NCBI RefSeq assembly: GCF_040267705.1
Contig: NZ_CP158374.1
Coordinates: 2,542,001-2,606,000 of the forward strand
From: Agromyces sp. G08B096
GTDB taxonomy: Bacteria > Actinomycetota > Actinomycetes > Actinomycetales > Microbacteriaceae
Length of the DNA stretch: 64,000 bases
Direction of reading: 5' to 3'
The notes below the pieces were generated by a model. That model searched no databases. It had not been told where the DNA came from and saw only the letters and a list, made by a program, of their open reading frames with translations. The translations under genes were made by a program, and so were the position numbers. Below are positions 47,715 through 63,994 of the stretch, in pieces. Numbering within the stretch: the first letter of the stretch is position 1; each line of letters begins with the position of its first letter.

Positions 47715-49193
47715 TCAGGCGGTGAGGTGCAGCGCCTTCGCCGTCGCCGCGAGCGACTCGGCCGCCGCGGCCGGATCGTCGTTGAGCTTCTCCCCGTAGT
47801 GCGGGATCATCTCGCGGATCTTCGGCTCCCACGCGGAGAACCGGTCGGGAAAGCAGCGCCGCAGCACGTCGAGCATGATCGGCGCTGCCGTCGAGGCGCC
47901 GGGCGACGCACCCAGGAGACCGGCGATCGTGCCATCGGCACCCGTGATGACCTCGGTGCCGAACTGGAGCACACCGCCCTGCTCGGGGTCCTTCTTCATG
48001 ACCTGCACGCGCTGGCCGGCCGTGATGAGCTCCCAGTCCTCCTTCTTCGCGGTCGGCATGAACTCGCGGAGGGCCTTCATCTTCGCGTCGCGGCTCGCGA
48101 GCAGCTCGCCGACGAGGTACTTCACCAGGTCGAAGTTCTTGAACGCGACCTGCAGCATCGGGCCGAGGTTGTGCAGACGCACCGAGAACGGCAGATCGAA
48201 CCAGGTGCTCGACTTCAGGAACTTCGGGGTGAACCCGGCGTACGGACCGAACAGCAGGGCCGTCTCGCCGTCGACGACCCGGGTGTCGAGGTGCGGCACC
48301 GACATGGGCGGCGCGCCCACGGCCGCCTTGCCGTACACCTTGGCCTGGTGCTGGGCGACGATCTTGGGGTTGGTGGTGCGCAGGAACTGGCCCGAGATCG
48401 GGAAGCCGCCGAAGCCCTCGATCTCGGGGATGCCCGAGTGCTGCAGCAGCGCGAGCGCGCCGCCGCCGGCACCGACGAACACGAAGCGGGCGCGCACCTC
48501 GTCGGGGGTGTTCCCGACGAGCCGGCGGAGCCGCAGCTTCCATGCGCCGTCCTTCTGGCGCTTCAGCCACGTCACCTGGGTGTCGGTGTGGACCTCGGCG
48601 CCGCGGCGCGAGAGGTCGTCGAAGAGGTGGCGGGTGAGCGCACCGAAGTCGACGTCGGTGCCGGCCTCGATGCGGGTCGCGGCGACCTTCTGCTTCGGGT
48701 TGCGCTTCTTCGCGAGCAGCGGCGTCCATTCGGCGATCTGCTCGAGGTCTTCGGTGTACTCGAGGCCCGGGAAGAGGGGCTGGTCCTTCAGGGCGTCGAC
48801 GCGCTTGCGCAGGTACTCGATGTTCGACTTGCCCTTGACGAACGTCATGTGCGGCGTGGAGTTGATGAACGTGTTCGGCTCGGGCAGGTCGCCCTGCTCG
48901 ACGAGGTGCGCCCAGTACTGGCGGCTCACCTGGAACTGCTCGTTGATGCTGATCGCCTTGGCGGGGTCGACGGTGCCGTCCTTCGCCTCGGGCATGTAGT
49001 TCAGCTCGCACAGCGCCGCATGGCCGGTGCCGGCGTTGTTCCACGCGTTCGAGGACTCCTGCGCGACCTCACCGAGGCGCTCGTAGACCCGGATGCTCCA
49101 GTCGGGCTGGAGCCGGGAGATGAGGGAGCCGAGCGTCGCGCTCATGATGCCCCCGCCGATCAGCACGACGTCGACGGTTTCCTCTGAATGCAC
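47715..49193 (-). CDS. mqo: malate:quinone oxidoreductase
   Basis: 492 residues from GTG 49193. FAD-binding start TVDVVLIGGGIMSATLGSLISRLQPDWSIRVYERLGEVAQESSNAWNNAGTGHAALCELNYMP is a diagnostic Mqo sequence; FPISGQFLRTTNPKIVAQHQAKVYGKAAVGAPPMSVPHLDTR and SPGASTAAPIMLDVLRRCFP follow. A peripheral membrane flavoprotein that oxidises malate and reduces quinone, the common TCA route in actinobacteria. A short hairpin follows the stop. Confidence 0.97.
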   Translation of the reverse strand: MHSEETVDVVLIGGGIMSATLGSLISRLQPDWSIRVYERLGEVAQESSNAWNNAGTGHAALCELNYMPEAKDGTVDPAKAISINEQFQVSRQYWAHLVEQGDLPEPNTFINSTPHMTFVKGKSNIEYLRKRVDALKDQPLFPGLEYTEDLEQIAEWTPLLAKKRNPKQKVAATRIEAGTDVDFGALTRHLFDDLSRRGAEVHTDTQVTWLKRQKDGAWKLRLRRLVGNTPDEVRARFVFVGAGGGALALLQHSGIPEIEGFGGFPISGQFLRTTNPKIVAQHQAKVYGKAAVGAPPMSVPHLDTRVVDGETALLFGPYAGFTPKFLKSSTWFDLPFSVRLHNLGPMLQVAFKNFDLVKYLVGELLASRDAKMKALREFMPTAKKEDWELITAGQRVQVMKKDPEQGGVLQFGTEVITGADGTIAGLLGASPGASTAAPIMLDVLRRCFPDRFSAWEPKIREMIPHYGEKLNDDPAAAAESLAATAKALHLTA

Positions 49194-49250
49194 GATTTCC
49201 AGTCTATGTCTCCGGGGCGGCGCGCTTGACCGCGGGTCGGGGCTGCGCTA

Positions 49251-50297
49251 TCAGGCCCGGGCGGCCGCCGGGGTCTCCCCGAGCGGCACCGCGGCGGCCG
49301 TCCCGAACGCCGCGCGGGCGCGCGCGAGCGCGTCGGGGGCGGCCCCCGCGTGCTGCAGGGCGAGCAGGCCCGCCCCGACGATCGGCGGGCCGTCGAAGAT
49401 CTCGACGACGGCGAGCGGGGCGTCGAGGGCGAGGCGGTCGAGGATGCCGCCGATGAGGCGCGGGTCCCTCGCCTGCACGATGCCGCCGCCGAGCACGACC
49501 GGCACCGGGCGGTCGAGCAGGTCGAGACGGGTGAGGCACGCCCGCGCGAACGCGACGATCTCCTCGGCCTGGCGGTCGACCAGCTGAGCCGCGACCGCGT
49601 CGCCCTGCCGCGCCGCCTCGAACACGGAGGGGGCGAGCACGGCGAGCTCGGCCGAGTCGCGCCGGCCGAAATGGAGATCCTCGATGAGCTCGGCGACCGA
49701 GCCCAGCCGCAACTGCTCGAGCAGCATGCCGGTGAGCAGCGTGCGCGGCCCACGACCGTCCACCTCGCGGGCCGCGTGCCAGAGCACCTCCTCGCCGAGC
49801 CCGCTGCCCCCGCCCCAGTCGCCCGAGAGCGGCCCGAGCGAGGGGAACCGCGCATCGGCGCCGTCGGCCCGCACGCCCACGGCGTTCACGCCCGTGCCGC
49901 ACACCACGACGACCGCGTCGGGCGAGTCGGTGCCCGCCCGCAGCAGGGCGTACAGGTCGTTGTCGATCACCGTCGAGGGCGACACCCATGGCCGGCCCTC
50001 GATCGCGGCGCGATACTCCGCGAGTTCCACGGGAAGGTCGATGCCCGAGAGGTACAGGTCGGCCTGCACCACCGGGTGCTCGCCCGCGACCTCGCGCACG
50101 AGCGCGTCGACGACGCCGACGGAGGCGTCCAGCCCCTCGAAATGCGGACTCGAGCCCGGGCCCCGCCGCCGCGACACGATCCGGCCGTCGAGGGTCAGCG
50201 CCGCGGCATCCGTCTTCGAACCGCCTCCGTCGACACCCACCACCACCGGCTCGAGGGCACCTGACGCCGCGGCATCCGGCCGCCCGGTCACGCCCAC
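49251..50297 (-). CDS. BadF/BadG/BcrA/BcrD-type sugar kinase (N-acetylglucosamine/glucosamine kinase-like)
   Basis: 348 residues from GTG 50297; GTG 50291 would give a GTGA overlap with the GH4 stop. Actin-like ATPase fold: VVVGVDGGGSKTDAAALTLDGRIV (phosphate 1), VIDNDLYALLRAG, VVVVCGTGVNAVGVRADG (phosphate 2), GPLSGDWGGGSGLGEEVLWHAAREVDGRG, VVLGGGIVQARDP. This branch contains the GlcNAc and GlcN kinases. Being coupled to a GH4 phospho-glycosidase and next to an Opp-type importer, it probably phosphorylates an imported amino sugar or its disaccharide. No PTS genes are present to do that. Confidence 0.85.
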   Translation of the reverse strand: MGVTGRPDAAASGALEPVVVGVDGGGSKTDAAALTLDGRIVSRRRGPGSSPHFEGLDASVGVVDALVREVAGEHPVVQADLYLSGIDLPVELAEYRAAIEGRPWVSPSTVIDNDLYALLRAGTDSPDAVVVVCGTGVNAVGVRADGADARFPSLGPLSGDWGGGSGLGEEVLWHAAREVDGRGPRTLLTGMLLEQLRLGSVAELIEDLHFGRRDSAELAVLAPSVFEAARQGDAVAAQLVDRQAEEIVAFARACLTRLDLLDRPVPVVLGGGIVQARDPRLIGGILDRLALDAPLAVVEIFDGPPIVGAGLLALQHAGAAPDALARARAAFGTAAAVPLGETPAAARA

Positions 50298-51544
50298 TCC
50301 AGGAACCGTGCGTTCTCGGCGAGCAGGAGATCGGTGAGCCGTTCGGCCCGCTCGTGCTGCAGCACCAGCGGGTGCGCCCGCATCGCGCGAAGCACCCGGT
50401 CACGTCCGCCGTGGACGGCGGCGTCGAGCGCGAGCCGCTCGTACCCGGCGACCCCCGCGATGAGCCCCGCGATATCCGCGGGGAGCGGCTCGACCGGCTC
50501 GGCCTCGAACCGGTCGTCGCGGTAGCGGGCCGGCACCTCGACGACGTGGTCGTCGGGCAGGAACGGCAGGAGCCCGTCGTTGCGGAGATTCACGACGCGC
50601 GGGGCATCCGCGCCGCGATGCATCGCGGCCAGCAGCTCGATCGCCGCCTCCGAGTAGAACGCACCGCCCCGCCCCTCGAGCGCGGCCGGCTTGTCGTGCT
50701 GCGCCGGGTCGGCGTAGAGCTCCAGCAGCTCGCGCTCGATCGCGCGCACGGCCTCGGCCCGGGTGGGCTCGCGGAGCTGCTCGGCGAGCACCTCGTCGTG
50801 CGCGTAGTAGTAGCGCAGGTAGTAGGAGGGCACCACGCCCAGCTGGGCGAGCAGCTCGGGCGCCAGGTGCACCTCCCCGGCGAGGTCGCCCAGCCGGTCG
50901 GCGAGCAGCGACGGCAGCGCGTCCCGTCCGTCGACCGAGACGCTGCGCTCCCAGGTGAGGTGATTGAGCCCGACGTGCCCCAGCCGGACCTCGTCGTGGC
51001 CGACGCCGAGCATCGCGGCGAAGCGTCGCTGGAAGCCGATCGCGACGTTGCACAGGCCGACGGCCCGGTGGCCGTGCTCGAGCAGGGCCCGGGTGACGAT
51101 GCCCACCGGGTTGGTGAAGTCCACGATCCACGCGTCGGGCTTCGCGTGGCGTCGGACGACGTCGGCGATCCGCAGCACGACCGGCACCGTGCGCAGCGCC
51201 TTCGCGAGCCCGCCCGGCCCGGTCGTCTCCTGGCCGATGCAGCCCGCCTCGTGCGGCCACGTCTCGTCGGCGTGCCTGGCGTCCTGCCCGCCGACCCGCA
51301 ACTGGACGAGCACCGCGTCGGCGTCGGCGACGCCCGCGACGAGGTCGGTCGTGCCCACCACGCGAGCGGGATGAGCCGCGTGGCGGAGCATCCGCTCGCT
51401 CATGCCCGCGACCAGCGCGAGCCGGCGCTCGTCGGGGTCGACGAGGTGGATCTCCTCGAGCGGCAGCTGCTCGCGCAGCCGGGCGAATCCGTCGATGAGC
51501 TCCGGCGTGTAGGTCGAGCCTCCGCCGACGATGGCGAGTTTCAT
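50288..51544 (-). CDS. family 4 glycoside hydrolase (6-phospho-beta-glucosidase / ChbF-like)
   Basis: 418 residues. GH4 enzymes use NAD and a divalent metal: KLAIVGGGSTYTPELIDGF (NAD loop), QLRVGGQDARHADETWPHEAGCIGQETTGPGG, DFTNPVGIVTRALL, metal ligands Cys165-Asn166 in GLCNVAIGFQ and His195 in HVGLNHLTWERSV. The GH4 branch with 'GQET.G.GG' includes 6-phospho-beta-glucosidase and the chitobiose-phosphate hydrolase ChbF. With the kinase downstream it may cleave a phosphorylated disaccharide such as chitobiose-6-phosphate. Other GH4 substrates (alpha-glucosides, uronides) are less likely from the motifs. Confidence 0.87.
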   Translation of the reverse strand: MKLAIVGGGSTYTPELIDGFARLREQLPLEEIHLVDPDERRLALVAGMSERMLRHAAHPARVVGTTDLVAGVADADAVLVQLRVGGQDARHADETWPHEAGCIGQETTGPGGLAKALRTVPVVLRIADVVRRHAKPDAWIVDFTNPVGIVTRALLEHGHRAVGLCNVAIGFQRRFAAMLGVGHDEVRLGHVGLNHLTWERSVSVDGRDALPSLLADRLGDLAGEVHLAPELLAQLGVVPSYYLRYYYAHDEVLAEQLREPTRAEAVRAIERELLELYADPAQHDKPAALEGRGGAFYSEAAIELLAAMHRGADAPRVVNLRNDGLLPFLPDDHVVEVPARYRDDRFEAEPVEPLPADIAGLIAGVAGYERLALDAAVHGGRDRVLRAMRAHPLVLQHERAERLTDLLLAENARFLEWA

Positions 51545-51624
51545 GGGTCCTCCGATGGGTGGATGGGAAGCGGATGAGCGGGCGAGCCGCCGGATCCGGG
51601 CAGACGGATGCCGCGTACGGGTGA

Positions 51625-51649
51625 CGATCGACCGGTGGGCGGTCGATCG
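51625..51649. terminator. hairpin between ROK gene and GH4 gene
   Basis: CGATCGACC (51625-51633) and GGTCGATCG (51641-51649) with a seven-base loop, in the 148-base gap between the ROK stop and the GH4 start. It may attenuate or process the operon mRNA. Confidence 0.45.
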
Positions 51650-51692
51650 GATGTGGCGATCGATGGTGGCGCGGCGGTGTCGCCGCGCGGGG

Positions 51693-52850
51693 TCAGACGG
51701 CGACCGTGATGTCGGCCTCGAGCCGGTCTCGGATGCGATCGACGAGCAGCTGGCGGGCGCCGAGCAGCACCGGCTGATCGCCGGTTCCGCTCGCGCGGAC
51801 CACGAGCTTCGGATGCGCCGCCGCGTCGATGCGGTCGCCGACGAGTTCGGCGAGCCGCGTGCCGCCCGCCCGGCCCGTCGGGCCGCCGAGGACGATCATC
51901 GCGGGATCGAGCACCGCGAGGAGCGGCGCGACGGCATACGCGACCCGGTCGGCGACCGCCTCGAGGGCGGCGGCATCGCCGGCGAGCCGCGGCAGCACCT
52001 CGGCGAGCGCGGTGCCCTCCTCCGCCCCGAGCAGGTGCGCCACGGCGGGCCCGCCGAGCAGGTCGGTGAGGTCGTTCGCGGTCGGCGCGATCGCGGTCGC
52101 GCTCCGCGCCACTTCGAGGTAGCCGACCTCGCCCGCACCGCCGGCGGCGCCGCGGTGGACGACCCCGCCGAGGTCGATGCCGACGCCGAGCCCGTCGCCG
52201 ATCCAGAGCAGCACGAAGCTCGACGCGGTGGTCGCCACGCCTCCGGATCGCTCGGCCATGGCCGCGAGGTTGACGTCGTTCTCGATGAGCACGGTGCGGC
52301 CGAGCGCGCGCTCGAGCCGGCGCCGGCTGCCGACCTGCGGCCAGCCGGGCAGCGTGTCGGTGAACGAGAGCTCGTCGCCCTCGTCGTCGAACGCGGCCTG
52401 GACGCCCGCGACCACGAGGCCGACGGAGTCGACATCGACGCCCGCGGCCCGGCACGCGGCCTCGACGGCGCCGAGCACGTCGGACTCGGGCGTGCGCCCG
52501 GCCGTCGCGGCGGGGACCTCGACCACGGGGTGGTCGGCGTCGGCCGCGTCGACCACGACGGCCTCGATGGCGCCGGCGAGCACGCTGATCGCGACCCCGG
52601 TCACCCGGTCGGTGCGCACCCCGTAGCTCACCGCGTTGGGACCCCGGCCTCCCGACACCTCGCCCACCGCGTGGATCAGCTCGACGCGCTCGAGTCGCGC
52701 GATCATCTGCGCCGCGGTCGGCTTGGACATGCCGGAGAGCTCGCCGAGCTGGGCCCGCGTGAGCGGGCCGTGCTCGAGCAGCAGGCGGAACGCGGTGCGG
52801 TCGTTGTGCGCGCGCAGCCACGTGGGCGTGCCCGGGTCGATCCGGTTCAT
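51693..52850 (-). CDS. ROK-family transcriptional regulator
   Basis: 385 residues from ATG 52850 (GGAGGAGGCG upstream). The N-terminal winged helix DRTAFRLLLEHGPLTRAQLGELSGMSKPTAAQMIARLERVELI binds DNA; the ROK sugar-kinase-like domain follows with VLLWIGDGLGVGIDLGGVVHRGAAGGAGEVGYLEV, where the usual zinc Cys cluster (CxCGxxGC) is absent. It likely senses a sugar or sugar phosphate from the neighbouring importer/kinase system. A 25-base dyad lies over its promoter and the same dyad lies before the importer gene, so it probably represses both. Confidence 0.9.
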   Translation of the reverse strand: MNRIDPGTPTWLRAHNDRTAFRLLLEHGPLTRAQLGELSGMSKPTAAQMIARLERVELIHAVGEVSGGRGPNAVSYGVRTDRVTGVAISVLAGAIEAVVVDAADADHPVVEVPAATAGRTPESDVLGAVEAACRAAGVDVDSVGLVVAGVQAAFDDEGDELSFTDTLPGWPQVGSRRRLERALGRTVLIENDVNLAAMAERSGGVATTASSFVLLWIGDGLGVGIDLGGVVHRGAAGGAGEVGYLEVARSATAIAPTANDLTDLLGGPAVAHLLGAEEGTALAEVLPRLAGDAAALEAVADRVAYAVAPLLAVLDPAMIVLGGPTGRAGGTRLAELVGDRIDAAAHPKLVVRASGTGDQPVLLGARQLLVDRIRDRLEADITVAV

Positions 52851-52903
52851 CGCCTCCTCCTGCCCCGCCGGTGCATCCGGCGCTCGGTCGTCATCGATCA
52901 CTG

Positions 52904-52928
52904 TATCTGAAAGGTTTCTTTCCTGAAT
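52904..52928. promoter_or_regulatory. ROK operator site 1 (autoregulatory)
   Basis: Pattern TATCT-G-AAAG-N5-TTTC-C-TGAAT, a less perfect copy of the 25-base dyad at 58497. On the minus strand TACAGT (52905-52900) is a good -10 box for the ROK gene, so the dyad lies directly over that promoter. Confidence 0.65.
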
Positions 52929-52934
52929 GACGCC

Positions 52935-53779
52935 TCACCCGCCTCTCCGGACTTCGTCCCGGAGCGCCCCGAGGCGGTCCGGGTCGGCCGCGGCCTCGAG
53001 CAGGGTCTTCGTGTACTCGTGCTGCGGTCGCAGGATGACGTCATCGGCCGGTCCGCGCTCGACGATCTCGCCGCGGGTCATCACGAGGATCTCGTCGGAG
53101 AAGTGCCGCGCCGTGGCGAGGTCGTGCGTGATGTAGAGCACGCCCAGCCGCTCCTCCCGCTGCAGGTCGGCCAGCAGGTTCAGCACGCCGAGCCGGATGG
53201 AGACGTCGAGCATCGACACCGGTTCGTCGGCCACGATGAAGCCCGCCCCCGGCGCGAGCGCCCGCGCGATCGCGACCCGCTGCCGCTGACCGCCCGACAG
53301 CTCGTGCGGCCGACGGTTCGCGAAGCTCGCCGCCGGCTCCAGCCGCACCCGCTCGAGCAGCTCGTACGCGCGCTCGCGCGCCTGCGCCGCCGACAGCTGC
53401 GGATGGTGGATCCTGACCGGCCGCTCGAGGTGGTGCAGGATCGTGTGGAACGGGTTCAGCGAGGCGAACGGGTCCTGGAAGACCATCTGCACGTGCCGCC
53501 GGTACCGCGCGAGCCCCGCACCCCGCGTCGCCGTCGGCCGCCCGTCGAGGAACACCCCGCCCGACGTCGGAGACTCCAGCTTCGCCAGCATCTTCGCGAT
53601 CGTCGACTTCCCCGACCCGCTCTCGCCCACGAGCGCGACCGTGCGGCCGGGCTCGAGGGTGAACGAGACATCCTTCACCGCGTGCAGCGTCTGGAACCGC
53701 ACGCCGCTGCGGAGCCGGAAGTCCTTCACGAGGTTCCGCGCCTCCAGGCGCTCCGGTCGCGCGTCGCGTTCGGTCGCCC

Positions 53780-53783
<4 letters not shown>
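52935..53783 (-). CDS. ABC transporter ATP-binding protein, OppF/DppF-like
   Basis: 282 residues from ATG 53783, overlapping the OppD-like gene by four bases. LHAVKDVSFTLEPGRTVALVGESGSGKSTIAKML (Walker A 53-61), Q-loop MVFQDPFASLNPF, signature ELSGGQRQR, Walker B FIVADEPVSMLDVS and H-loop YITHDLATA. It energises the importer together with the OppD-like subunit. Opp-type systems carry peptides but also chito- and cello-oligosaccharides; the sugar kinase, GH4 and ROK genes nearby favour a saccharide. Last gene of the five-gene operon. Confidence 0.92.
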
Positions 53784-54681
<898 letters not shown>

Positions 54682-54685
<4 letters not shown>

Positions 54686-55671
54686 GCGAACGCCCCCGAG
54701 TCCGCGACGCCGCGACCGGCCTTCTCGGCCTTCCGCTGGTTGCGGGCCGCCTGCGGCGCGATGCGCAGCTTCGGGTTCACGACCTCGTCGATCGCGAAGT
54801 TGATCAGCGACAGCCCGGCGCCGAGGAGCGCGATGACGAGGCCCGGCGGCACGAACCACCACCAGGCCCCGGTGCCGACCGCCTGCCCGGTCTGGGCGTC
54901 GTTCAGCATCGTGCCGAGCGTGATCGAACCGGTCGGACCGAGCCCGAGATAGGAGAGGCCGGCCTCGCCGAGCACCGCGAAGATGATGCCGAAGATGAAC
55001 TGCGCGGCCAGCAGCGGCACCAGGTTCGGCAGGATCTCGACGAAGATCACCCGCATCGGCTGCTCCCCCGCGACCCGGGCCGCGGCGACGTACTCGCGCG
55101 TGCGCAGCGACTTCGCCTGCGCCCGCAGGACGACCGCGGACCCGGCCCAGCCGGTGACGCCCAGCACTAGCGCCACGAGCAGCGAGCTTCGGGCGAGCGG
55201 CCCGAGCCCCTCGGTGTTCTGCACGTACGCCGCGATCACCATCACGAGCGGCAGCCCCGGGATGACGAGCATGATGTTCGTGAACAGGGTGAGCACCTCA
55301 TCGAGCACCCCGCCGAAGTAACCGGCGAGCACGCCGAACACGATCGCGAGCAGCAGCGCCACCACGCCCGCCACGAGGCCGACGAACAGCGACCCCTGCG
55401 TGCCCCAGGCGAGCTGGGCGAAGACGTCGTAGCCGAGCTTCGTGGTGCCGAGCCAGTGCTCGGAGTTCGGCGGCAGCAGCGCCGGGTTGCTCGAGTCGCG
55501 CGGCGGCTGCGCGATCATCGGCCCGAAGAGGCCGAACGCGACGATCGCGCCGACGATGACCAGCCCTGCGATGAGTTTGCCGGATCGCTGCGGGAGCAGG
55601 TGCGCGAACCGCGACGGGCGCTCGACGCGCGTCGCCGCGACCGCGGCGGTGGTGGCTGGAGCGTCAACCAT
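54682..55671 (-). CDS. ABC transporter permease, OppC/DppC-like
   Basis: 329 residues. N-terminal OppC segment LLPQRSGKLIAGLVIVGAIVAFGLFGPMIAQ...HWLGTTKLGYDVFAQLAWGTQGSLFVGLVAGVVALLLAIVFGVLAGYFGG, five to six membrane helices, and the cytosolic coupling loop EYVAAARVAGEQPMRVIFVEILPNLVPLL (EAA motif). It begins eight bases inside the end of the OppB-like gene. Forms half of the membrane channel. Confidence 0.93.
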
Positions 55672-56665
55672 GGTGCCTCGCTCTCGGGTCGATGAAGCCG
55701 TAGACGAGATCCATGACGAAGTTCGCCGCGAGCACGGTGAGGGTGATCACGAGGAACACGCCCTGCATGAGCGCGTAGTCGAGCCCCTGCACGGCCTGGA
55801 TCATGAGTTTGCCGATGCCCGGGTAGCTGAACACCTGCTCCATCACGATGGAGCCGGCGACGACGAACCCGAGCGCGATGCCGAACCCCGCGAGGCTCGG
55901 GATCGCCGCGTTGCGCGCGGCGTAGCGGGTGCGGATGCGCCGGGGAGTCAGGCCCTTGGCCTCCGCGGTGACGACGTAGTCCTCCGACATCGTCGAGACC
56001 ATCATGTTGCGCATGCCGAGCAGCCAGCCGCCCACGGAGGAGAGCACGATCGTGGTGGCCGGCAGGATGGCGTGCACCACCGCGCTGCCGACGAACGCCC
56101 AGCTCCACTCCGGTCCCGCCGGGAACTCGAACACGTCGTACCCGCCGATGATGGGCAGCAGGCCGAGCTGCACGGAGAACACCGCGACGAGCACGAGCGC
56201 GAGCCAGAAGTACGGGATCGACTGGAAGACCGTCGTCACCGGCACGAGATGGTCGAGCCAGGTGCCGCGCTTCCAGCCCACCCATGCACCGACCGCGAGC
56301 CCCAGGACGAACGAGATCACCGTGGCCGTGCCGACGAGGATGACCGTCCACGGCAGCGCGCTCGCGATGAGCTCGCCCACCGGAGCCGGGTACCGCGTCG
56401 AGGAGACGCCGAGGTCTCCGGCGAGCAGCCGGCCCCAGTAGGCGAGGTACTGGTCCCAGAGCGACATCCCCCGCTCCGCGCCGAGGATCGAGGTGATCGC
56501 CTGCACCGTCTCCTCGGAGAGGGGACGCCCGCCGTTGGCACGCCGGAGCTTGCCGAGCATGATCGCGGCCGGGTCGCCCGGCAGCAGCCGGGGGAGCAGG
56601 AAGTTGAGCGAGATCGCCGCCCAGAGGGTCACCAGGTAGAAGACGACGCGACGCACGTAGAACAT
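55664..56665 (-). CDS. ABC transporter permease, OppB/DppB-like
   Basis: 333 residues. Six membrane helices (YLVTLWAAISLNFLLPRLLPGDP at the start, VILVGTATVISFVLGLAVGAWVGW, and others) and the EAA-type loop DYVVTAEAKGLTPRRIRTRYAARNAAIPSLAGFGIALGFVVAGSIVMEQVFSYPGIGKLM. It pairs with the OppC-like permease. The gene starts 46 bases after the end of the frameshifted binding-protein gene. Confidence 0.93.
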   Translation of the reverse strand: MFYVRRVVFYLVTLWAAISLNFLLPRLLPGDPAAIMLGKLRRANGGRPLSEETVQAITSILGAERGMSLWDQYLAYWGRLLAGDLGVSSTRYPAPVGELIASALPWTVILVGTATVISFVLGLAVGAWVGWKRGTWLDHLVPVTTVFQSIPYFWLALVLVAVFSVQLGLLPIIGGYDVFEFPAGPEWSWAFVGSAVVHAILPATTIVLSSVGGWLLGMRNMMVSTMSEDYVVTAEAKGLTPRRIRTRYAARNAAIPSLAGFGIALGFVVAGSIVMEQVFSYPGIGKLMIQAVQGLDYALMQGVFLVITLTVLAANFVMDLVYGFIDPRARHHG

Positions 56666-56711
56666 CAGGTCGCCTCCCCTCGGGCGCGGAGCAGGGATGC
56701 CACGGCCGGGC

Positions 56712-58378
56712 CTACTTCTCGACGGGCTTCAGGTGCGTGAGCACGACCGCCGATGCCGCCGACAGGTACGGCAGCGGCGCCGCGTAGAGGTCGGACTCGC
56801 TCGGCCAGCCGCTGAACTTCGCGGTGTTGAAGAAGGCCTGGGAGGCGTTCAGCACCACGGGGATGTAGGGCAGGTCGCGGGCGATCTCCGTCTGATCTGC
56901 GCGTACGCGGCCTGCTTCGTCGGAACGTCCTGCGTGGCGCCCGCCGCGAGCACGGCCTGGTCGACGACCGGGTTGCTGTAGCGGGAGTAGTTCTGCCCAG
57001 CCAGGGGGTCCTCCCCGACGGGCGCGGTCGAGGTGCCGGCGAAGTACTCGCTGTAGTTGGAGTACGGGTCGGCGACGAGCGACTGCGTGAGTCCGTACAG
57101 CGCGCTCTGGAAGTCGCCGGCCGAGATCGGCGTCCAGTACTCCGCGTCGGAGACGGTGCGCGCGTTGATCCGAATACCGGCCTCGGCGGCCTGCTCGGAG
57201 ATCAGCTTGGCGGCGTCGTTGTAGTCGGTCCAGCCGTCGGGCGAGAACAGGTCGATCTCAATCGCCACCCCGTCCTTGCCGTAGAAGCCGTCGGCGTCCT
57301 TCGTGTAGCCGGCCGCCTCGAGGATGGCGCCGGCCTCGGCGGCGTCGGACTCCTGCGGGCTCGTCGCGAGGGACGGGTCGGAGAGCCACTGCTCGTCGCG
57401 CGGCTGCAGCGTGAACGAGGGCGTGGCCTCGCCCGCGAGGCCGGCGAAGGCCTTCTCGCGGATCGTGGCCCGGTCGATGGCGACGTTGATCGCCTGGCGG
57501 ACGGCGGGGTCGGTCTGCGGGCCCTCGCAGCCGAGCTCGGCATTGGCGCACGTGATCATGACGGTCGGATCCTGCTGCTGGTTCAGCGTGGAGATCTCGC
57601 CCGAGCCGGTGACGGCGTCGGGGTTCGCGATGAACTGGCCGACCCAGTCGATCTTGCCGGTGGCGAGGAGGTCCTGCGAGGACTGGTTGGAGTCGAGCCC
57701 GAGGTACTGCACCTCCTTCACGGCCGGCGCCCCGTCGCGGAACAGCTCGTTCGCCTCGACGGTGTAGGCGGCCTCGGTGAAGCTCTTCACCGTGTAGGGC
57801 CCGGAGCCGACGGGCTCGGGGTTCGTCTCGCTCATGAAGTCGTCGATGTCCTCCCAGATGTGCTTGGGCACGATCCAGGTGGCGCCGAGGATGAGCGACG
57901 CGGCGGTGAACTTCGGCTCGCTGTAGGTGAGGACGACGGTCGTCTCGTCGGTCGCCTCTGCCGAGACGAGCTGCTCGTCGACGTTCGAGCCGTAGGTGAA
58001 GGTGAAGGCGACGTCCTCGGCGGTGAGCGGCTCGCCGTCGCTCCACTGCTGGTCGGGCTTGATGGTGATGGTGAGGGTCGTGCCGTCTTCGCTGTACTCG
58101 TAGCTCTCGCCGATGAGCCCCGTGGGCGGCTCGGCGGAGAGCTGGTTGAAGAAGAACAGCGGCTCGTAGATCGCGCCGTAGGTGGCGTGCACGGCGGTGT
58201 CGACCGCGAAGGGGTTGAAGTTGTGGTTGATGGGCGTGGCGCTGCCGGCCCAGACGCGGAGCACGGCATCACCGCTCCCGCTCGAGCCATCGGAGGGCGC
58301 GCATCCCGTGAGCGCGAGCGTGACTGCGGTCGCCCCGGCGGCGAGGACCGCCGCCACGGAGCGTCTGGTTCGAATCAT
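56712..58378 (-). pseudogene. Opp-type (family 5) substrate-binding lipoprotein with a one-base frameshift near its 3' end
   Basis: The first 509 codons from ATG 58378 encode a lipoprotein signal (VTLALTGC) and the family 5 binding fold: NFNPFAVDTAVHATYGAIYEPLFFFN, EPLTAEDVAFTFTYG, PEPVGSGPYTVKSF, INVAIDRATIREKAF. Near 56894 the frame is lost (YAQIRRRSP...stop 56849). One extra base there would restore QTEIARDLPYIPVVLNASQA... running to TAG 56712, the expected C-terminus (about 555 residues). It is either a sequencing error or a true mutation; the lost part helps close the binding cleft. It would be the specificity subunit of the importer. The vibrio chitobiose-binding protein belongs to this family. 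Confidence 0.85.
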
Positions 58379-58496
58379 CGTTCCGTCGTTCCTTTCAGTG
58401 CTTCGTTGCGTGGAAGGTGCTGGGTTGCAGTGACGCCGCTGCGATGCAGGAACCGGTGCCCGGCGTTACTGGAAGCGACCCTAACAGAAAGGAGAC

Positions 58497-58521
58497 TATC
58501 TAGAAACAACTTTTCCAGATA
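58497..58521. promoter_or_regulatory. ROK operator site 2 (importer promoter)
   Basis: Perfect dyad TATCT-N-GAAA-N5-TTTC-N-AGATA, the clear version of the site at 52904. It lies upstream of a TAGGGT -10 box (minus strand, 58483-58478) for the substrate-binding gene, so it would overlap the -35 region. Confidence 0.75.
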
Positions 58522-58660
58522 CTGTGAACGGTGGGTTACGGGTGCGCTCCGCCCGTGTTTCGGGCGCGCCGAAGCGCGGACGGCCGCACGCGTCACGGGA
58601 ACGGTCGGCGGTGCCGCCGCGTCCGCCGGTGCCGTCGCAGACACCGATCCGCGACGCGGC

Positions 58661-59278
58661 TCAGCGGTCGAGCAGCCTCGCGAGCGCGGGCAGCTGCGCC
58701 GGGTCCTCCAGCGCCGAGCCGACGGCGACGACGCGCACGCCCGCGGCGAGGAACTCGGCGGCGTTGCCTGCGTCGAGTCCACCGGTCGCCACGAACCGGA
58801 CGTCGGGGAACGGCCCCCGCATCGCACGGAACCAGCCGGTGCCGAGCACCGAGGCCGGGAACGCCTTCAGCCACGTGAGCCCGAGACCCATGGCCGCCAT
58901 GACCTCGGAGGGCGTCGCCACGCCGGGCAGCGGCGGCAGGCCCGCGTCGAGACACGCGCGGACCACCGCGGCGTCCAGTCCCGGACTCACGGCGAACGCC
59001 GCGCCGGCCGACGCGGCGACCTCGACCTGGTCGACCGTGACGACGGTGCCCGCGCCCACGCGGGCGCCCCGCGCGCGACCGGCCTCGACGACCGCGGCGA
59101 GCGCGTCCACGTCCTCGGCCGACTGGATGGGCAGCTCGACCACCTCGATGCCGAGGTCCCACGCGGTGACCGCGAGCTCGAGGCTCCGCTCGACGCCGAG
59201 CCCGCGGAAGATCGCCATCAGCGGGCGCCCCGCGAAGAGGTCTTCGAACACCGTGTCGCAGGCGGCCGCGGCGCTCAT
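58661..59278 (-). CDS. KDPG/KDPGal aldolase family (Eda/DgoA-like)
   Basis: 205 residues; overlaps the kinase stop (ATGA). Schiff-base Lys in LTWLKAFPASVLG (K138), VGAGTVVTVDQVE, and PPLPGVATPSEVMAAM. In Eda the motif is EVTLRT; here it is VELPIQS, closer to the VEIPLNS of the galactonate-type enzyme DgoA, so the Arg of Eda is replaced (Gln52). It splits a 2-keto-3-deoxy-6-phospho-hexonate into pyruvate and glyceraldehyde-3-P, but gluco or galacto configuration is open. It follows the PfkB kinase in one unit. Confidence 0.88.
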   Translation of the reverse strand: MSAAAACDTVFEDLFAGRPLMAIFRGLGVERSLELAVTAWDLGIEVVELPIQSAEDVDALAAVVEAGRARGARVGAGTVVTVDQVEVAASAGAAFAVSPGLDAAVVRACLDAGLPPLPGVATPSEVMAAMGLGLTWLKAFPASVLGTGWFRAMRGPFPDVRFVATGGLDAGNAAEFLAAGVRVVAVGSALEDPAQLPALARLLDR

Positions 59279-60195
59279 TCGTCGATCCTCTCGGCTCGTG
59301 GGAAGTCGGCGGTGTCGGCGAGCGCGGTGGCCGCGCGCGCATGCCCGGCCGCGAGGCGGGCCTCGACGGGCCGGCCGTCGAGCAGGGCGTCGAGGTACCC
59401 GGCGGCGAACGCATCACCGGCGCCCACCACCTCCACGACCTCGACCGACGGCGTGGGCACCACGACGAGCTCGCCGCTGCGCGAGACGGATGCTGCGCCG
59501 ACAGCACCGTCCTTCACGATGAGTTCGCGCGGCTCGGGCAGCAGGGCGCGAACGGCCTCGGGCGTCTGCGCGCCCCAGAGCGCCTCGGCCTCGTCGAGCC
59601 CGACGAAGACGACGTCGGCGCGTCGGGCGAGAGCTCGGAGCCGCTCGGCCGCCGACTCGGCGTGGGCGGAGCCCGTCCAGAGCACGGGGCGGTGGTTGAC
59701 GTCGAACGCGAGGAGCGCACCCGCGGCGCTCACGCGGTCGGTGGCCGCCTCGAGGAACGCGTCGCAGTCGGGTGAGAGCGCCGGCGTGATCCCGCTCAGA
59801 TGGACGACGCGCGCCGTCTCGATCGGCAGCGCGTCGAGGAAGGCCGGGCCCATGCGCGAGGCGGCCGACCCCGCCCGGTAGTAGCGGACGCCGGCGCCCG
59901 GGTCCTTCAGGTACAGCCCGGTCGGCGCGTCGGGGTCGAACTCGATCCAGCGCGTGTCGACGCCGCGGGCGTCGAGTTCGTGGGCGATGCGGTGGCCGAG
60001 GGCGTCGTCGCCGAGGCGGCCGGCGAAGGCGGCCGTGCGGCCGAGCGCCGCGGCGTGCGACGCGACGTTCGCCTCGGCGCCCGCGGTGTCGATGCGGAAC
60101 TCGCGGGCGGTGGCGAGCGGCTCGGCCACGGCGGGTGCGAGGAGCGCCATGGCCTCGCCGACGGCGAGGATCTCGGGCTGCGGGCGGGTCTCCAC
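59275..60195 (-). CDS. PfkB-family sugar kinase (2-keto-3-deoxygluconate kinase-like)
   Basis: 306 residues from GTG 60195 (AGGGCGC before it); ATG 60222 is an alternative. PfkB signatures: LAVGEAMALLAP, GAEANVASHAAALGRTAAFAGRLGDDALG, FDPDAPTGLYLKDPGAGVRYYRAGSAASRM (the YYR element and 'GLY.K' are typical of KDG kinases), and the C-terminal VVGAGDAFAAGYLDALLDG with catalytic Asp. It would make the 6-phosphate used by the aldolase downstream. Divergent from the dehydratase/deacylase/IclR operon across a shared control region. Confidence 0.87.
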   Translation of the reverse strand: METRPQPEILAVGEAMALLAPAVAEPLATAREFRIDTAGAEANVASHAAALGRTAAFAGRLGDDALGHRIAHELDARGVDTRWIEFDPDAPTGLYLKDPGAGVRYYRAGSAASRMGPAFLDALPIETARVVHLSGITPALSPDCDAFLEAATDRVSAAGALLAFDVNHRPVLWTGSAHAESAAERLRALARRADVVFVGLDEAEALWGAQTPEAVRALLPEPRELIVKDGAVGAASVSRSGELVVVPTPSVEVVEVVGAGDAFAAGYLDALLDGRPVEARLAAGHARAATALADTADFPRAERIDE

Positions 60196-60227
60196 GCGCC
60201 CTATGCTGACTCCTGTGCACATGTGAC

Positions 60228-60252
60228 GCAAACGCGTTGCAAGATATGCAAC
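60228..60252. promoter_or_regulatory. IclR-type operator in the divergent control region
   Basis: Perfect dyad GTTGCA-AGATA-TGCAAC at 60236-60252, preceded by GCAA-ACGCG-TTGC (60228-60240), so TTGC/GCAA half sites overlap in tandem. IclR-family regulators often bind such TTGCA/TGCAA dyads. It lies between the kinase and dehydratase genes, and an IclR gene ends the rightward operon. Confidence 0.65.
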
Positions 60253-60274
60253 ACAGTGAATGGAGCAACGCGGG

Positions 60275-61612
60275 ATGCCCCGACTCGACCCTTCGGCCCT
60301 CGCCGCCCTCGGCGACGAGCGGCTCGGCGCCGCGGAGAAGGGCCTGCCTGCGCGGGCCGCCGGCTCGACCGTGCGCGACTTCCTCGCGACGACGCCCTCC
60401 CTCGACGAGTTCTGGACCCCCCTCCTCGTGCTCGACCGCGCGGCGCTCCGGCACAACGCGCGGGTCATCCAGCACTGGGCCGGATCGCGCGGTCTCGAGC
60501 TCATGCCGCACGGCAAGACGACGATGGCTCCCGAGCTCTGGCAGCTGCAGCTCGAGGCGGGCGCGACCGGGCTCACCCTCGCGACCCCCGGCCAGGTGCG
60601 CGCGGCCCGCGCGTTCGGTGCGGATTCGGTGCAGCTCGCCAATGCCTTCGTCGCGCCCGCCGCGCTCGCCTGGCTCGCCGCCGAGCTCGAGGACCCCGGC
60701 TTCGCGTTCTGCTGCTGGGCCGACTCGGTCGCGACGGTCGACGCCATGGAGCGCGGCCTCGCGGAGACCGGCGCCGCGGCCTCCCTGCCCCGGCCCATCG
60801 ACGTGCTCGTCGAGCTCGGGGCGCCCGGAGGCCGGACGGGCGCCCGCACCGTGGGGGAAGCCGTCGAGGTGGCCCGCCGCGTCACGGCCTCGCCCGTCCT
60901 CCGCCTCGCCGGCGTGGCCGGCTACGAGGGCAGCCTCGGCCATGATCGCTCCCCCGAGTCGCTCGGCGCCGTCCACGACTACCTCGATGCGCTCCGCGCC
61001 CTCTTCGACGTCGCCCGCGACCTCGCCGCCGACGCGCGCGACGACGTCACCGCGCCCGTGCTCTCGGTCGGCGGCAGCGCCTACCTCGACCTCGTGGCCG
61101 AGACGGTCGCGCCGGTCGTGGCGGCGGCACGCGACTCGGGTGAGGCCGCCCGCGTCGTCGTGCGCTCGGGCGCCTCCCTCGTGCACGACGAGGGCTTCTA
61201 CCGCGGCATCTCCCCGCTCGAGGGCGAGCTGACCGCGGCGATGCGCGGGCTCGCGCGCGTCGTGTCCCACCCCGAGCCCGGGCTCGCGCTCCTCGACGCG
61301 GGCAAGCGCGACCTGCCCTACGACGAGGGGCTCCCCGTGCCGCTCGACGTCGCCGCCGGCGTCGGCGCCGCACTCGCGCAGGCCGCCGGCGTCGTGCCGG
61401 GAGCGGGCCGGCTCGCCGACGCATCCGTCTCGGCCATGAACGATCAGCACGCGTTCCTCCGCGCCCACGGGGCGTTGCCGGTGGCCGTCGGCGACGTCGT
61501 CGCGCTCGGCCTCTCGCACCCCTGCACGGCGTTCGACAAGTGGCGATTCGTCCCGATGGTCGAGGGCGGCGGGTCCGACACCGTCGTCGGCCTCGTGCGG
61601 ACCCTGTTCTGA
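60275..61612 (+). CDS. PLP-dependent D-amino-acid dehydratase/aldolase-like enzyme (DSD1/alanine-racemase fold)
   Basis: 445 residues from ATG 60275, where GGAG lies nine bases upstream; ATG 60260 has no ribosome site. N-terminal alanine-racemase-like barrel with PLP Lys81 in LELMPHGKTTMAPELWQLQLEAGATGLTLATPGQV, VLVELGAPGGRTGAR. The C-terminal domain has LSHPCTAFDKWRFVP (His and Cys near 415-417), the zinc pair of D-serine dehydratase (DSD1) and D-threonine aldolase. In the context of KDG-type kinase and aldolase, I infer a D-glucosaminate dehydratase (deaminase) giving 2-keto-3-deoxygluconate; D-serine or D-threonine enzymes are the alternative. Confidence 0.85.
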   Translation: MPRLDPSALAALGDERLGAAEKGLPARAAGSTVRDFLATTPSLDEFWTPLLVLDRAALRHNARVIQHWAGSRGLELMPHGKTTMAPELWQLQLEAGATGLTLATPGQVRAARAFGADSVQLANAFVAPAALAWLAAELEDPGFAFCCWADSVATVDAMERGLAETGAAASLPRPIDVLVELGAPGGRTGARTVGEAVEVARRVTASPVLRLAGVAGYEGSLGHDRSPESLGAVHDYLDALRALFDVARDLAADARDDVTAPVLSVGGSAYLDLVAETVAPVVAAARDSGEAARVVVRSGASLVHDEGFYRGISPLEGELTAAMRGLARVVSHPEPGLALLDAGKRDLPYDEGLPVPLDVAAGVGAALAQAAGVVPGAGRLADASVSAMNDQHAFLRAHGALPVAVGDVVALGLSHPCTAFDKWRFVPMVEGGGSDTVVGLVRTLF

Positions 61613-61619
61613 GGCCCGC

Positions 61620-63263
61620 GTGTCCGATCTGCTGATCCGCGAGGTCGTCGCCGTCGACGGCGACGGCGAGGTGCGCGGCGGCGAGGCATCCGATGTGCTC
61701 GTGGTCGACGGCCGCATCGCCGCCATCGCTCCGGCCGGCTCCCTCGCACGCGACGCGCCCGCCGCGGCAGCCGTCGTCGAGGGCGACGGCCGGCTGCTGC
61801 TGCCCGGCTTCGTCGACGCGCACTCGCACGCGAGCGGCCGGGTCTTCGACGCCGACGTGCAGCTCGCGCTGCTGCGCCAGGGCGTGACGAGCGTGATCGC
61901 CGGGCAGGACGGCGTCGGCTGGGCGCCCGGCGACGGCGCGTACGCCACCGAGTACTTCGCCGCGATCGACGGACCGCACCCCGGCTACGCGGGCGGCGGC
62001 GTCGCGGAACTCCTCGCCGCGCACGACGGCACGACGCCGCTGAACGTCGGATACCTGGTGCCCGCGGGCACCGTGCGCCACCTGGTCACGGGGCGGTCGA
62101 CGGATGCCCCCTCCCCCGATGAACTCGCCGCCATGGTGCGCCTCGTGGCCGAAGGGCTGGAGGCCGGCGCACTCGGTCTCTCGACGGGCCTCGACTACGT
62201 GCCGGGCATCTTCGCCTCCACGACCGAGCTGACCGCCCTCGCCCGCCCGGTCGCCGAGGCCGGCGGCGTGGTGGCCTCCCATCTCCGCGGCGGGTACGAG
62301 TCGGGGTCCGCGGCGGGCGTCGCCGAGCTCGCTGCGATCGCCCGCGACGCCGGGACGCGGGTGCACATCTCGCACTTCCACGCCGAGCCAGCGATCGTGC
62401 TGGAGCTCATGGCCGGGCTCGCCGCCGGCGACCTCGCGGGCGGGCGACCCGTCGACGCGACGTTCGACGCGTATCCGTACGGTCGCGGTTGCTCGATCCT
62501 CGCGATGCCCATCCTCCCCGCTTCCCTCACCGTCCGCCCCGTCGACGAGGTGCTGGCCGTGCTCCGCGACCCGGCCGAGCGGGCGCGCCTGCTCGACGAG
62601 TGGTTCCCCACGATCGTCGACTACCCGAGCCTCGGACCCGACTGGCCGTCGATGCTCACCTTCGCCCACGTGGCCGCCGCCGAGTACGACTGGGCGCACG
62701 GGCTCACCCTCGCCGAGGCCGCGGCCCGCCACGGCGTCGCACCCGCCGACCTCGCGCTCGACGTGCTCGTCGCGAGTCGGCTCGAGGTGAACGTGGTCAT
62801 GTCCGTCCGCGCCGAACGCTCCGACGCGGACCTTGCCCGCATCCTGGCTCATCCGGCCGCGCTCGGCGGCTCGGACGGCATCTTCGTCGGCCGGCATCCG
62901 CACCCGCGCGCCCGCGGCACCTTCGCGCGCTACCTCGACCTGCTCGTCCGCACGGACCACGGGCCGGGCGCGCGGCTCGACTGGGCGGGCGCCGCCGCGC
63001 TCTGCTCCACCCGCGCGGCCGACCGGTTCGCGCTCGGCGACCGCGGCCGGGTGCGCGTCGGCGCCGTCGCCGACCTGGTGCTGGTCGACCCGGCAGCGGT
63101 GCGGGACCGCGCGACGTACGACCGCCCGCTCGAGCTCGCCGAGGGCATCGACGACGTCGTCGTGGCCGGTGTGCCGGTGCTCGCGCGCGGCGCGCTCACC
63201 TGCCGGACGCCCGGACGCGGGCTCCGGCGCGCTGCCCGCGCCGCCCGACCGGAGGTGGGCTGA
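61620..63263 (+). CDS. N-acyl-D-amino-acid deacylase (D-aminoacylase family amidohydrolase)
   Basis: 547 residues from GTG 61620, seven bases after the dehydratase gene. Amidohydrolase core: DAHSHASGRVF (His68, His70), IAGQDGVGWAPG (GQDG where classical D-aminoacylase has a Cys ligand), GALGLSTGLDYVPGIFAS, VHISHFHAEP, and LGGSDGIFVGRHPHPRARGTFARYL with the Asp. A small beta-sandwich made of both ends is implied by GRIAAIAPAGSL and GAVADLVLVDP. It removes an acyl group from an N-acyl-D-amino acid; in this operon N-acetyl-D-glucosaminate is a good candidate. Ends TGATG with iclR. Confidence 0.88.
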   Translation: MSDLLIREVVAVDGDGEVRGGEASDVLVVDGRIAAIAPAGSLARDAPAAAAVVEGDGRLLLPGFVDAHSHASGRVFDADVQLALLRQGVTSVIAGQDGVGWAPGDGAYATEYFAAIDGPHPGYAGGGVAELLAAHDGTTPLNVGYLVPAGTVRHLVTGRSTDAPSPDELAAMVRLVAEGLEAGALGLSTGLDYVPGIFASTTELTALARPVAEAGGVVASHLRGGYESGSAAGVAELAAIARDAGTRVHISHFHAEPAIVLELMAGLAAGDLAGGRPVDATFDAYPYGRGCSILAMPILPASLTVRPVDEVLAVLRDPAERARLLDEWFPTIVDYPSLGPDWPSMLTFAHVAAAEYDWAHGLTLAEAAARHGVAPADLALDVLVASRLEVNVVMSVRAERSDADLARILAHPAALGGSDGIFVGRHPHPRARGTFARYLDLLVRTDHGPGARLDWAGAAALCSTRAADRFALGDRGRVRVGAVADLVLVDPAAVRDRATYDRPLELAEGIDDVVVAGVPVLARGALTCRTPGRGLRRAARAARPEVG

Positions 63264-63994
63264 TGTCGCAGTCCGTCACCCGCGCCGCTGCGATCATCGA
63301 CCGCGTCGCCGCCGAGGCCCGGACCGTCGCCGAGCTCGCCGAGGAGTTCGGCCTGCACCGCTCGACCATGTTCCGCGAGCTGCAGGCCCTCGAGCGGGTC
63401 GGCTGGGTGCGCCGTCGTCCGAGCGGGCGGTATGCCCTCGGCACACGGCTCGCCACCCTGTCGAAGCAGGCACTCGACTCCCTCGATCTGCGCGATGTCG
63501 GCGGCGAGCACGTGCGGCGCCTGCACCGGCGGACGGGTAACACCGTGCACCTCGCGGCGCTCATGGACCGCTCGATCGTCTACGTCGACAAGGCGGAGGA
63601 CGAGGCGGGCGTCCGCATGTACTCCCGCGTCGGCAAGGCCGTCATCCCGTACTGCTCCGCCGTCGGGAAGGCGATCCTCGCCGAGCTCGACGGACCCGGG
63701 CGCGACACAGTCCTCGCGGGCGCCACGTGGGAGCGGTACACCGACACCACGATCACGACGCGAGAGCGGCTCGACCGCGAGCTCGCCACGGTCGCCGCAC
63801 GCGGCTACGCGACCGACGACCGCGAGTTCGAGGCGTTCGTCAACTGCATCGCCGTGCCGATCGTCTCGAGCGCCGGCGTCGTCGGAGCGATCTCGGTCAC
63901 GGCCATCCGCATGGTCGCCGACCTCGACCGCCTCGCCGCGCACCTGCCGGCCATGCGGGAGGCCGCCGACGCGATCTCCCGCGAGCTCGGCTGA
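63263..63994 (+). CDS. IclR-family transcriptional regulator
   Basis: 243 residues from ATG 63263, with GGAGGTGG upstream; the stop lies six bases before the window end. Winged helix TRAAAIIDRVAAEARTVAELAEEFGLHRSTMFRELQALERVGWVRRRPSGRYALG, then the effector domain HVRRLHRRTGNTVHLAALMDRSIVYVDKAEDEAGVRMYSRVGKAVIPYCSAVGKAILAEL and NCIAVPIVSSAGVVGAISVT. It probably binds the TTGCA dyad in the divergent region and responds to a keto-acid such as KDG (inference; KdgR-like IclR regulators do so). Confidence 0.93.
   Translation: MSQSVTRAAAIIDRVAAEARTVAELAEEFGLHRSTMFRELQALERVGWVRRRPSGRYALGTRLATLSKQALDSLDLRDVGGEHVRRLHRRTGNTVHLAALMDRSIVYVDKAEDEAGVRMYSRVGKAVIPYCSAVGKAILAELDGPGRDTVLAGATWERYTDTTITTRERLDRELATVAARGYATDDREFEAFVNCIAVPIVSSAGVVGAISVTAIRMVADLDRLAAHLPAMREAADAISRELG

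Follow-up and report, generated by a model that had tools for sequence, protein, structure and literature searches.

The closest described system is the ong pathway of Pseudoalteromonas prydzensis, which degrades N-acetyl-D-glucosaminate (GlcNAc1A). As far as the available text of that report goes, the chemistry of OngB, OngC and KdgK is proven and ongD, encoding a RidA protein, is needed (PMC9537276). The same text reports complete ong pathways only in Gammaproteobacteria and one betaproteobacterium, where assignment required four or more genes to occur together, each matching the ACAM 620 ong genes at E<1e-5 and >30% identity (PMC9537276). We analyzed a 64,000-nt stretch (hereafter the window) of Agromyces sp. 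G08B096 (genome G000; NZ_CP158374.1, positions 2,542,001 to 2,606,000), whose right end carries adjacent genes for an aldolase (eda), a PfkB kinase (kdgK), a DSD1-like deaminase (dsd), a D-aminoacylase-type deacylase and an IclR-family regulator (iclR), with ridA as a sixth gene just beyond. On balance, we are inclined to read this locus as an actinobacterial catabolic regulon for GlcNAc1A. It probably follows the same scheme as ong, with a deacylase that lies outside the OngB family as defined.

The order of the chemistry matches that of P. prydzensis as described in the available text, and a D-aminoacylase-fold deacetylase, a DSD1-like deaminase, a RidA protein and a 2-keto-3-deoxygluconate (KDG) kinase occur together in both. 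An aldolase gene is also present in the Vibrio, Klebsiella and Serratia ong clusters, in the portions considered. Unlike ong, which has genes for a MurR/RpiR regulator, an SSS symporter, a TonB receptor and a GH20 enzyme, the window has an IclR gene, and none of those four was found among the genes assigned in 47715-63994. Compared with the available Pseudoalteromonas CF6-2 sequences as a stand-in, the OngC and RidA counterparts exceed 30% identity (31.6% and 32.7%), whereas those of OngB and KdgK do not (27.7% and 28.0%). That only two of the four genes pass in this stand-in strain may explain why such clusters went unfound. The likeness to ong suggested by an earlier, sequence-only reading of the window thus holds for the cytoplasmic set, with counterparts of OngB, OngC, OngD/RidA and KdgK and an aldolase, and fails at the deacylase, whose residues set it apart from OngB. 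The string "actinobact" is absent from the main text of PMC9537276 and PMC12017989, and no actinobacterial GlcNAc1A pathway was listed in the open-licence PMC literature, work on Microbacterium and chitin included (passages considered: PMC11653859, PMC12343721, PMC7014002).

The pathway that we infer from the observed gene content, synteny, residues and palindrome would begin with the entry of GlcNAc1A, the putative substrate, into the cell, where the deacylase would remove acetate to give D-glucosaminate. The deaminase, a pyridoxal phosphate (PLP)/Zn enzyme, would then eliminate the C3 hydroxyl, and ammonia would be lost via an enamine/imine to give KDG, with RidA speeding enamine/imine hydrolysis. 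Phosphorylation of KDG by the PfkB enzyme and cleavage of the resulting 2-keto-3-deoxy-6-phosphogluconate (KDPG) by the aldolase would yield pyruvate and glyceraldehyde-3-P. Bound to a GTTGC-N7-GCAAC operator, the KdgR-like IclR protein would repress transcription in both directions until KDG, the presumed inducer, releases it. In some genera, GH20 enzymes would cleave disaccharides such as GlcNAc-GlcNAc1A; in this genus, a neighboring importer, kinase and GH4 module may feed the pathway.

All five adjacent genes named by the sequence-only reading lie where it placed them, with open frames and Pfam support. Its sequence of deacetylation, deamination/dehydration, phosphorylation and aldol cleavage is likewise supported, by the gene content, RidA, GntP-type and GH20 genes in some relatives, and a shared operator. 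The aldolase and kinase genes point left and overlap by 4 nt; dsd, the deacylase gene and iclR point right, with a gap of 7 nt and an overlap of 1 nt. From the sequence, kdgK likely starts at GTG 60195, and ATG 60275, with GGAG nine nt upstream, is a more likely start for dsd than 60260. A scan of 58300-60400 for sigma-70 promoters and terminators found nothing.

The arrangement is conserved across the genus and is not due to chance. In a sample of 60 genomes, the deacylase gave matches at E<=1e-10 in 35, and we counted 34 carriers (G000 included), comprising 33 orthologues of at least 62% identity and a contig-end piece in G021; the orthologue is in two pieces in G035 and G057, and G042 was excluded for having distant paralogues only. 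Around the orthologue in 32 relatives (G021 left out), we found dsd in 32, ridA in 32, iclR in 29, kdgK in 28 and eda in 27, all six core genes together in 27, and genes of the neighboring module in 18 (substrate-binding protein, SBP), 18 (GH4), 19 (ROK) and 17 (BadF). These module counts are lower bounds, as some flanks end at contig ends or at the 20 kb limit.

Two wider samples were compared. The first comprised the best 80 loci of a named scan, in which the motif GQDG was one of two search patterns; six are non-Actinomycetota by title (L163, L164, L177, L195, L206, L209). Counted by tblastn (E<=1e-6) on the surrounding stretches, several of them on short contigs, these loci contain dsd in 63, ridA in 62, iclR in 44, kdgK in 40, a GntP-type transporter gene in 23 (within 10 kb), eda in 16 and GH20 in 10. 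The Tsukamurella GntP-type transporter passes the TIGR00791 cut-off, and an annotated run in Tsukamurella tyrosinosolvens encodes RidA, IclR, a sugar kinase, an alanine-racemase-like protein, a D-aminoacylase, a KDPG aldolase and a gluconate:H+ symporter. The second sample comprised 20 loci of the family, picked by identity and not by motif. Among the 18 with at least 36% identity, 17 have dsd and 17 have ridA; the two at 34% or less have neither.

The kdgK/dsd gap contains a palindrome, presumed to be the IclR operator. The pattern GTTGCRNNNNNYGCAAC occurs at a single place in the whole G000 genome, namely this gap, and a GTTGC-spacer-GCAAC site is found at the same place in 24 of the 32 genus relatives and in none of the three loci that lack iclR (L051, which starts inside dsd, was left out of the palindrome counts and its loose match ignored). 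The 60 genus genomes hold 58 palindrome places, against 12 for a reversed control, and 25 of the 58 are at the cluster. Eleven of the 33 off-cluster places were inspected: two (G042 and G046) are at kdgK/iclR/eda sets, and the other nine showed no common pathway link when their open reading frames (ORFs) were read by eye. The former two (L253 in G042, L252 in G046) show no deacylase or deaminase gene in the examined stretch and resemble a stand-alone KDG regulon. A palindrome at kdgK/iclR/eda sets without a deacylase orthologue agrees with KDG being the shared intermediate. In the named loci, a looser form stands upstream of dsd in 39 of 42 with an iclR match, versus 2 of 21 without one and 3.3% of random 360-nt pieces. 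Across 1.5 Mb from the 80 loci, we found 44 RTTGCRN5YGCAAY sites, of which 36 lie between kdgK and dsd, four others before dsd and one elsewhere. The remaining three adjoin GH20 genes (L166, L179, L185), among ten loci with a GH20 match; these three genes pass the Pfam cut-off, and their start codons, hence the exact placement of the sites, are approximate.

Neither the kinase nor the aldolase reaches a curated NCBIfam equivalog or subfamily cut-off, although both pass the general Pfam cut-offs (PF00294, PF01081). The best models for the kinase, those of KDG/2-keto-3-deoxygalactonate (KDGal) kinases, score 141.8 bits against a cut-off of 440. Since these models are bifunctional, and KDGal kinase and KDPGal aldolase annotations occur in the Klebsiella and Comamonas ong-like clusters, the same type of pathway could serve another N-acyl-2-amino-2-deoxy-aldonate, such as N-acetyl-D-galactosaminate via KDGal. 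The GH20 partners are not decisive here, as GH20 enzymes can act on GalNAc as well. The aldolase, however, scores 154 bits for eda versus 124 bits for KDPGal aldolase, and we consider this substrate quite improbable.

The window deaminase retains the PLP lysine (PHGKTTMAP) and the HxC zinc motif (SHPC) of OngC/DSD1-type enzymes. It is 31.6% and 33.4% identical to two OngC proteins and 48.6% identical to the Tsukamurella enzyme. A 43-row tree, not resolved in its deep forks, tentatively puts it in an actinobacterial group apart from OngC.

Judged by its residues, the deacylase belongs to a distinct subfamily and is not an OngB. We aligned it with the ong-cluster proteins of Pseudoalteromonas, Vibrio and Klebsiella. 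The subtype V amidohydrolase fold of P. prydzensis OngB (PpOngB; 9kb1, 9kb3) is shared, and seven residues are kept (His68, His70, His221, His252, Tyr285, Asp419 and Arg430), corresponding to His68, His70, His222, His252, Tyr285, Asp368 and Arg379 in the available description of PpOngB (PMC12017989). The same description makes Cys97 a metal ligand and has Lys254 bind the carboxylate (PMC12017989). In the window enzyme, Asp97 replaces this Cys (GQDG versus GNCG), His replaces Lys254, Ile replaces Gln298, Glu226 has no counterpart, and an extra His249 appears. Across the GQDG subfamily, position 97 is Asp, position 254 is His, Thr, Ala or Gly, and position 298 is hydrophobic; the counterparts of Glu226 and Ser290/291 are lost, the insertion domain is longer and His249 is invariant. 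Membership in the OngB family was accordingly rejected, with the counterparts of Cys97, Lys254, Glu226 and Gln298 replaced and the Cys/His/His metal site of subtype V absent.

Asp97 is present in the window, in 32/32 genus loci and in the 18/18 family loci of at least 36% identity; all of these 18 also have His249 and none has Lys254. The two family loci at 34% or less have Cys97, Glu249 and Lys254. Because the family loci split alike in both respects, the GQDG motif and the dsd/ridA context go together. The GQDG counts of 77/80 (named loci) and 27/27 are biased by the search pattern, and the unbiased figure is the 18/18. Residue 292 is Ser in the window and in 32/32 genus loci, as in PpOngB; the alignment is less sure near the longer insertion, around residues 292 and 298. 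The Ser292/Gln298 pair of the OngB family was not found, since Gln298 occurs in none of the window, genus and family loci. Nor was the set of the D-aminoacylase AfDam (Thr292, Leu298, Cys97, Lys254), as Cys97 and Lys254 are absent and the window has Ser292.

An AlphaFold model (27 sequences; pLDDT 93.1) has the D-aminoacylase fold. In Foldseek, AfDam (1m7j), the N-acyl-D-glutamate deacylase BbDam (3gip), a Klebsiella protein (9g5m) and PpOngB (9kb3) lie at much the same distance from the model, and the fold therefore does not decide the substrate; the TM-score by target is 0.87 for both AfDam and BbDam. The ong-type-cluster deacylase of a Klebsiella pneumoniae plasmid record (L082) begins with the same residues as 9g5m, which is titled D-acylase, and may be a GlcNAc1A deacetylase. 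In the ong-like clusters of Comamonas odontotermitis (L072) and L083, the ABC importer is of the oligopeptide type and the deacylase shows the AfDam-like Thr292/Leu298 pair; their substrate may differ from GlcNAc1A.

The genome search suggested by the sequence-only reading yielded one GH18 match, with GH20 at two places, and no AA10 lytic polysaccharide monooxygenase (LPMO). Within the genus, the deacylase occurs in 29 of the 30 genomes that have GH18, and GH18 in 29 of the 34 carriers (Fisher 1.2e-10); GH20 is present in 34/34 carriers versus 15/26 others (2.3e-5), all eight LPMO genomes are carriers (Fisher 0.0077), and 22 of 23 genomes with a GH4 orthologue carry the deacylase. When kinship was taken into account for GH18, GH4 and LPMO, using a 59-genome rpoB tree and a two-trait Markov test, the GH18 link (likelihood ratio 33.1, p 1.2e-6) and the GH4 link (p 0.0013) were retained.

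Several observations weigh against GlcNAc1A as the substrate. Besides the missing AA10 gene in G000, LPMO genes occur in only 8 of 60 genus genomes, and their link falls to p 0.09 after phylogeny. Across 299 genomes of the family, no GH18 link was seen outside the genus (strong matches 3/19, p 1.0; over cut-off 14/66, p 0.27), and the LPMO link is weak (4/9, p 0.046, without phylogeny correction). The chitinase link, strong in the genus and not family-wide, was dropped as a general proof. Because the GH18 link is confined to the genus and the LPMO link is weak, chitin is the best guess and not a proven source. Part of the six genes is missing in 5 of the 32 genus loci, and the full set is often unclustered elsewhere (kdgK 40/80 and eda 16/80 in the named loci; 9/18 and 7/18 in the family loci). 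In the family set, just 4 of the 10 loci with iclR have the looser palindrome upstream of dsd; the arrangement therefore varies. Finally, the deacylase lacks residues that bind sugar hydroxyls in the available PpOngB description, residue 292 is Thr, as in D-aminoacylases, in 14 of the 18 family loci of at least 36% identity, and residue 298 is hydrophobic in the window, genus and all 18 family loci (PpOngB Gln, AfDam Leu).

Since positions 292 and 298 lean toward D-aminoacylases, the GlcNAc1A reading loses weight and ordinary D-amino-acid salvage gains it. Here the deacylase would release D-serine or other D-amino acids for deamination by the DSD1 enzyme, and the kinase and aldolase would serve another sugar acid. 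The Foldseek E-value order puts 1m7j and its relatives first and PpOngB slightly behind, most GQDG family members share Thr292 and a hydrophobic 298 with AfDam, and the DSD1 family includes D-serine deaminases, among them 3gwq, the best PDB match of the window deaminase. Three genus loci have dsd, the deacylase gene and ridA without kdgK, eda and iclR, the latter trio also occurs alone, and the GntP family includes the D-serine carrier DsdX. Two of the loci without iclR, kdgK and eda (L036 in G023, L039 in G028) each have one in-frame TGA in the deacylase match. Against salvage stand the 36 palindromes between head-to-head kdgK and dsd and those at GH20 genes in three loci, and Asp97, His249 and the loss of Lys254 separate the deacylase from D-aminoacylases as much as from OngB. 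We regard salvage as unlikely.

Table 1. Features of the locus and of the neighboring module (window positions unless stated).
Feature	Position	Strand	Evidence and remarks
BadF/NagK-type amino-sugar kinase	49251-50297	-	PF01869; best PDB 8zo3, MurNAc/GlcNAc kinase
GH4 phospho-beta-glycosidase-like enzyme	50288-51544	-	PF02056/PF11975; best PDB 5c3m, 1s6y (6-phospho-beta-glucosidases)
ROK-family regulator	51693-52901	-	PF00480, 82 bits; presumed regulator of importer module
ABC importer ATPases, two	53780-54697, 52935-53783	-	ORFs; family by reading
ABC importer permeases, two	55664-56665, 54682-55671	-	ORFs; family by reading
ABC importer SBP	56712-58378	-	PF00496; frame broken near 3' end, gene also delimited as 56849-58378
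KDPG/KHG-type aldolase (eda/kdgA)	58661-59278	-	PF01081 130.8 bits; TIGR01182 154.1 bits (cut-off 156.05); proposed final step to pyruvate + glyceraldehyde-3-P
PfkB kinase, KDG-type (kdgK)	59275-60195	-	PF00294 172.9 bits; top NCBIfam, KDG/KDGal kinase models
Palindrome GTTGCAAGATATGCAAC, presumed IclR operator	60236-60252	unstranded	Divergent kdgK/dsd intergenic region
DSD1-like fold-III PLP/Zn amino-acid deaminase (dsd)	60275-61612	+	PF14031, PF01168; best PDB 3gwq; OngC-like role proposed
D-aminoacylase-type amidohydrolase, GQDG subfamily deacylase	61620-63263	+	PF07969; OngB-like role proposed, active site differs
IclR-family regulator, KdgR-like (iclR)	63263-63994	+	PF01614, PF09339; top NCBIfam KdgR 141.8 bits (cut-off 275)
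ridA, sixth gene	G000:C1:2606053-2606439, just beyond window end		PF01042 119 bits; 58 nt past iclR

Left of the core genes lies an ABC/ROK/GH4/BadF module, followed on the minus strand by mqo, after the BadF gene. The close PDB sequences of the SBP include 1zty, titled "Chitin Oligosaccharide Binding Protein", a binder of the Vibrio cholerae type; the two belong to the same SBP family, whereas here the gene adjoins GH4, ROK and BadF kinase genes. Vibrio chitooligosaccharide binders, as we take them to be, are also found under PDB 6lzu and 5yqw. The SBP frame is read through in 17 of 18 genus relatives and looks broken in L032 as well; the break in the window may be due to a sequencing error. 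The permease gene at 55664 is present in 18 of 32 genus loci.

The sequence-only reading gave the pathway its own transporter. An ABC importer does adjoin, but its broken SBP frame, its likeness to chitooligosaccharide importers and its regulation leave that role in doubt. The palindrome was found at the SBP gene in 0 of 18 genus loci, and this gene has its own conserved upstream tract, with 8-mers shared in 17 of 19 sequences. By these features, the module looks like a chitooligosaccharide module under separate control. The importer may deliver GlcNAc-GlcNAc1A; plain chitobiose fits equally.

Compatible with the GlcNAc1A reading is an extension in which 49251-63994 forms one chitobionate (GlcNAc-GlcNAc1A) locus: after ABC import, BadF would phosphorylate the GlcNAc end, GH4 would cut the product into GlcNAc-6-P and GlcNAc1A, and the core enzymes would degrade the latter. 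The putative link draws on the nearness of the SBP to a chitin-oligosaccharide binder and of GH4 to 6-phospho-beta-glucosidases, on the 18 genus loci, out of 32, in which SBP and GH4 genes adjoin the core, and on the phylogeny-aware GH4 association. One run of genes in Glaciibacter superstes (L211) also fits: it encodes the deaminase and deacylase, a ROK protein, GH4, BadF and a sugar ABC importer that, by reading, is of another kind. The missing palindrome and separate promoter tract of the SBP gene, however, weaken 49251-63994 as one operon. GH4 sits elsewhere in G033, G034 and G043, and G046 has the module but no deacylase. Outside the genus, among the matches listed, G248 and G257 are the only genomes with a deacylase-like gene and GH4 within 10 kb of each other (the G257 match is just 34% identical), and none of the 18 family loci shows GH4 or BadF. 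Plain GlcNAc could be an equally good substrate for BadF. We consider the extension rather doubtful. In G046, the ABC-ROK-GH4-BadF module is followed by a deaminase gene without a deacylase (L255), perhaps a decayed cluster.

A broader proposal, which we advance tentatively and hold to be possible more than probable, is that Actinobacteria evolved, independently of marine ong, a second class of GlcNAc1A deacetylase (Asp/His/His plus an extra His) under one KdgR-like operator, in some lineages with GntP and GH20. This would make it a widespread unrecognized pathway, with the present species scavenging GlcNAc1A released by others. A published survey with gammaproteobacterial queries, as far as its available text goes, placed oxidized-chitin catabolism almost only in Gammaproteobacteria. 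If a parallel actinobacterial route exists, a defined six-gene regulon would allow direct tests of what becomes of LPMO products in non-marine settings, and the metal-site change within the D-aminoacylase fold would be a clean case of repeated recruitment.

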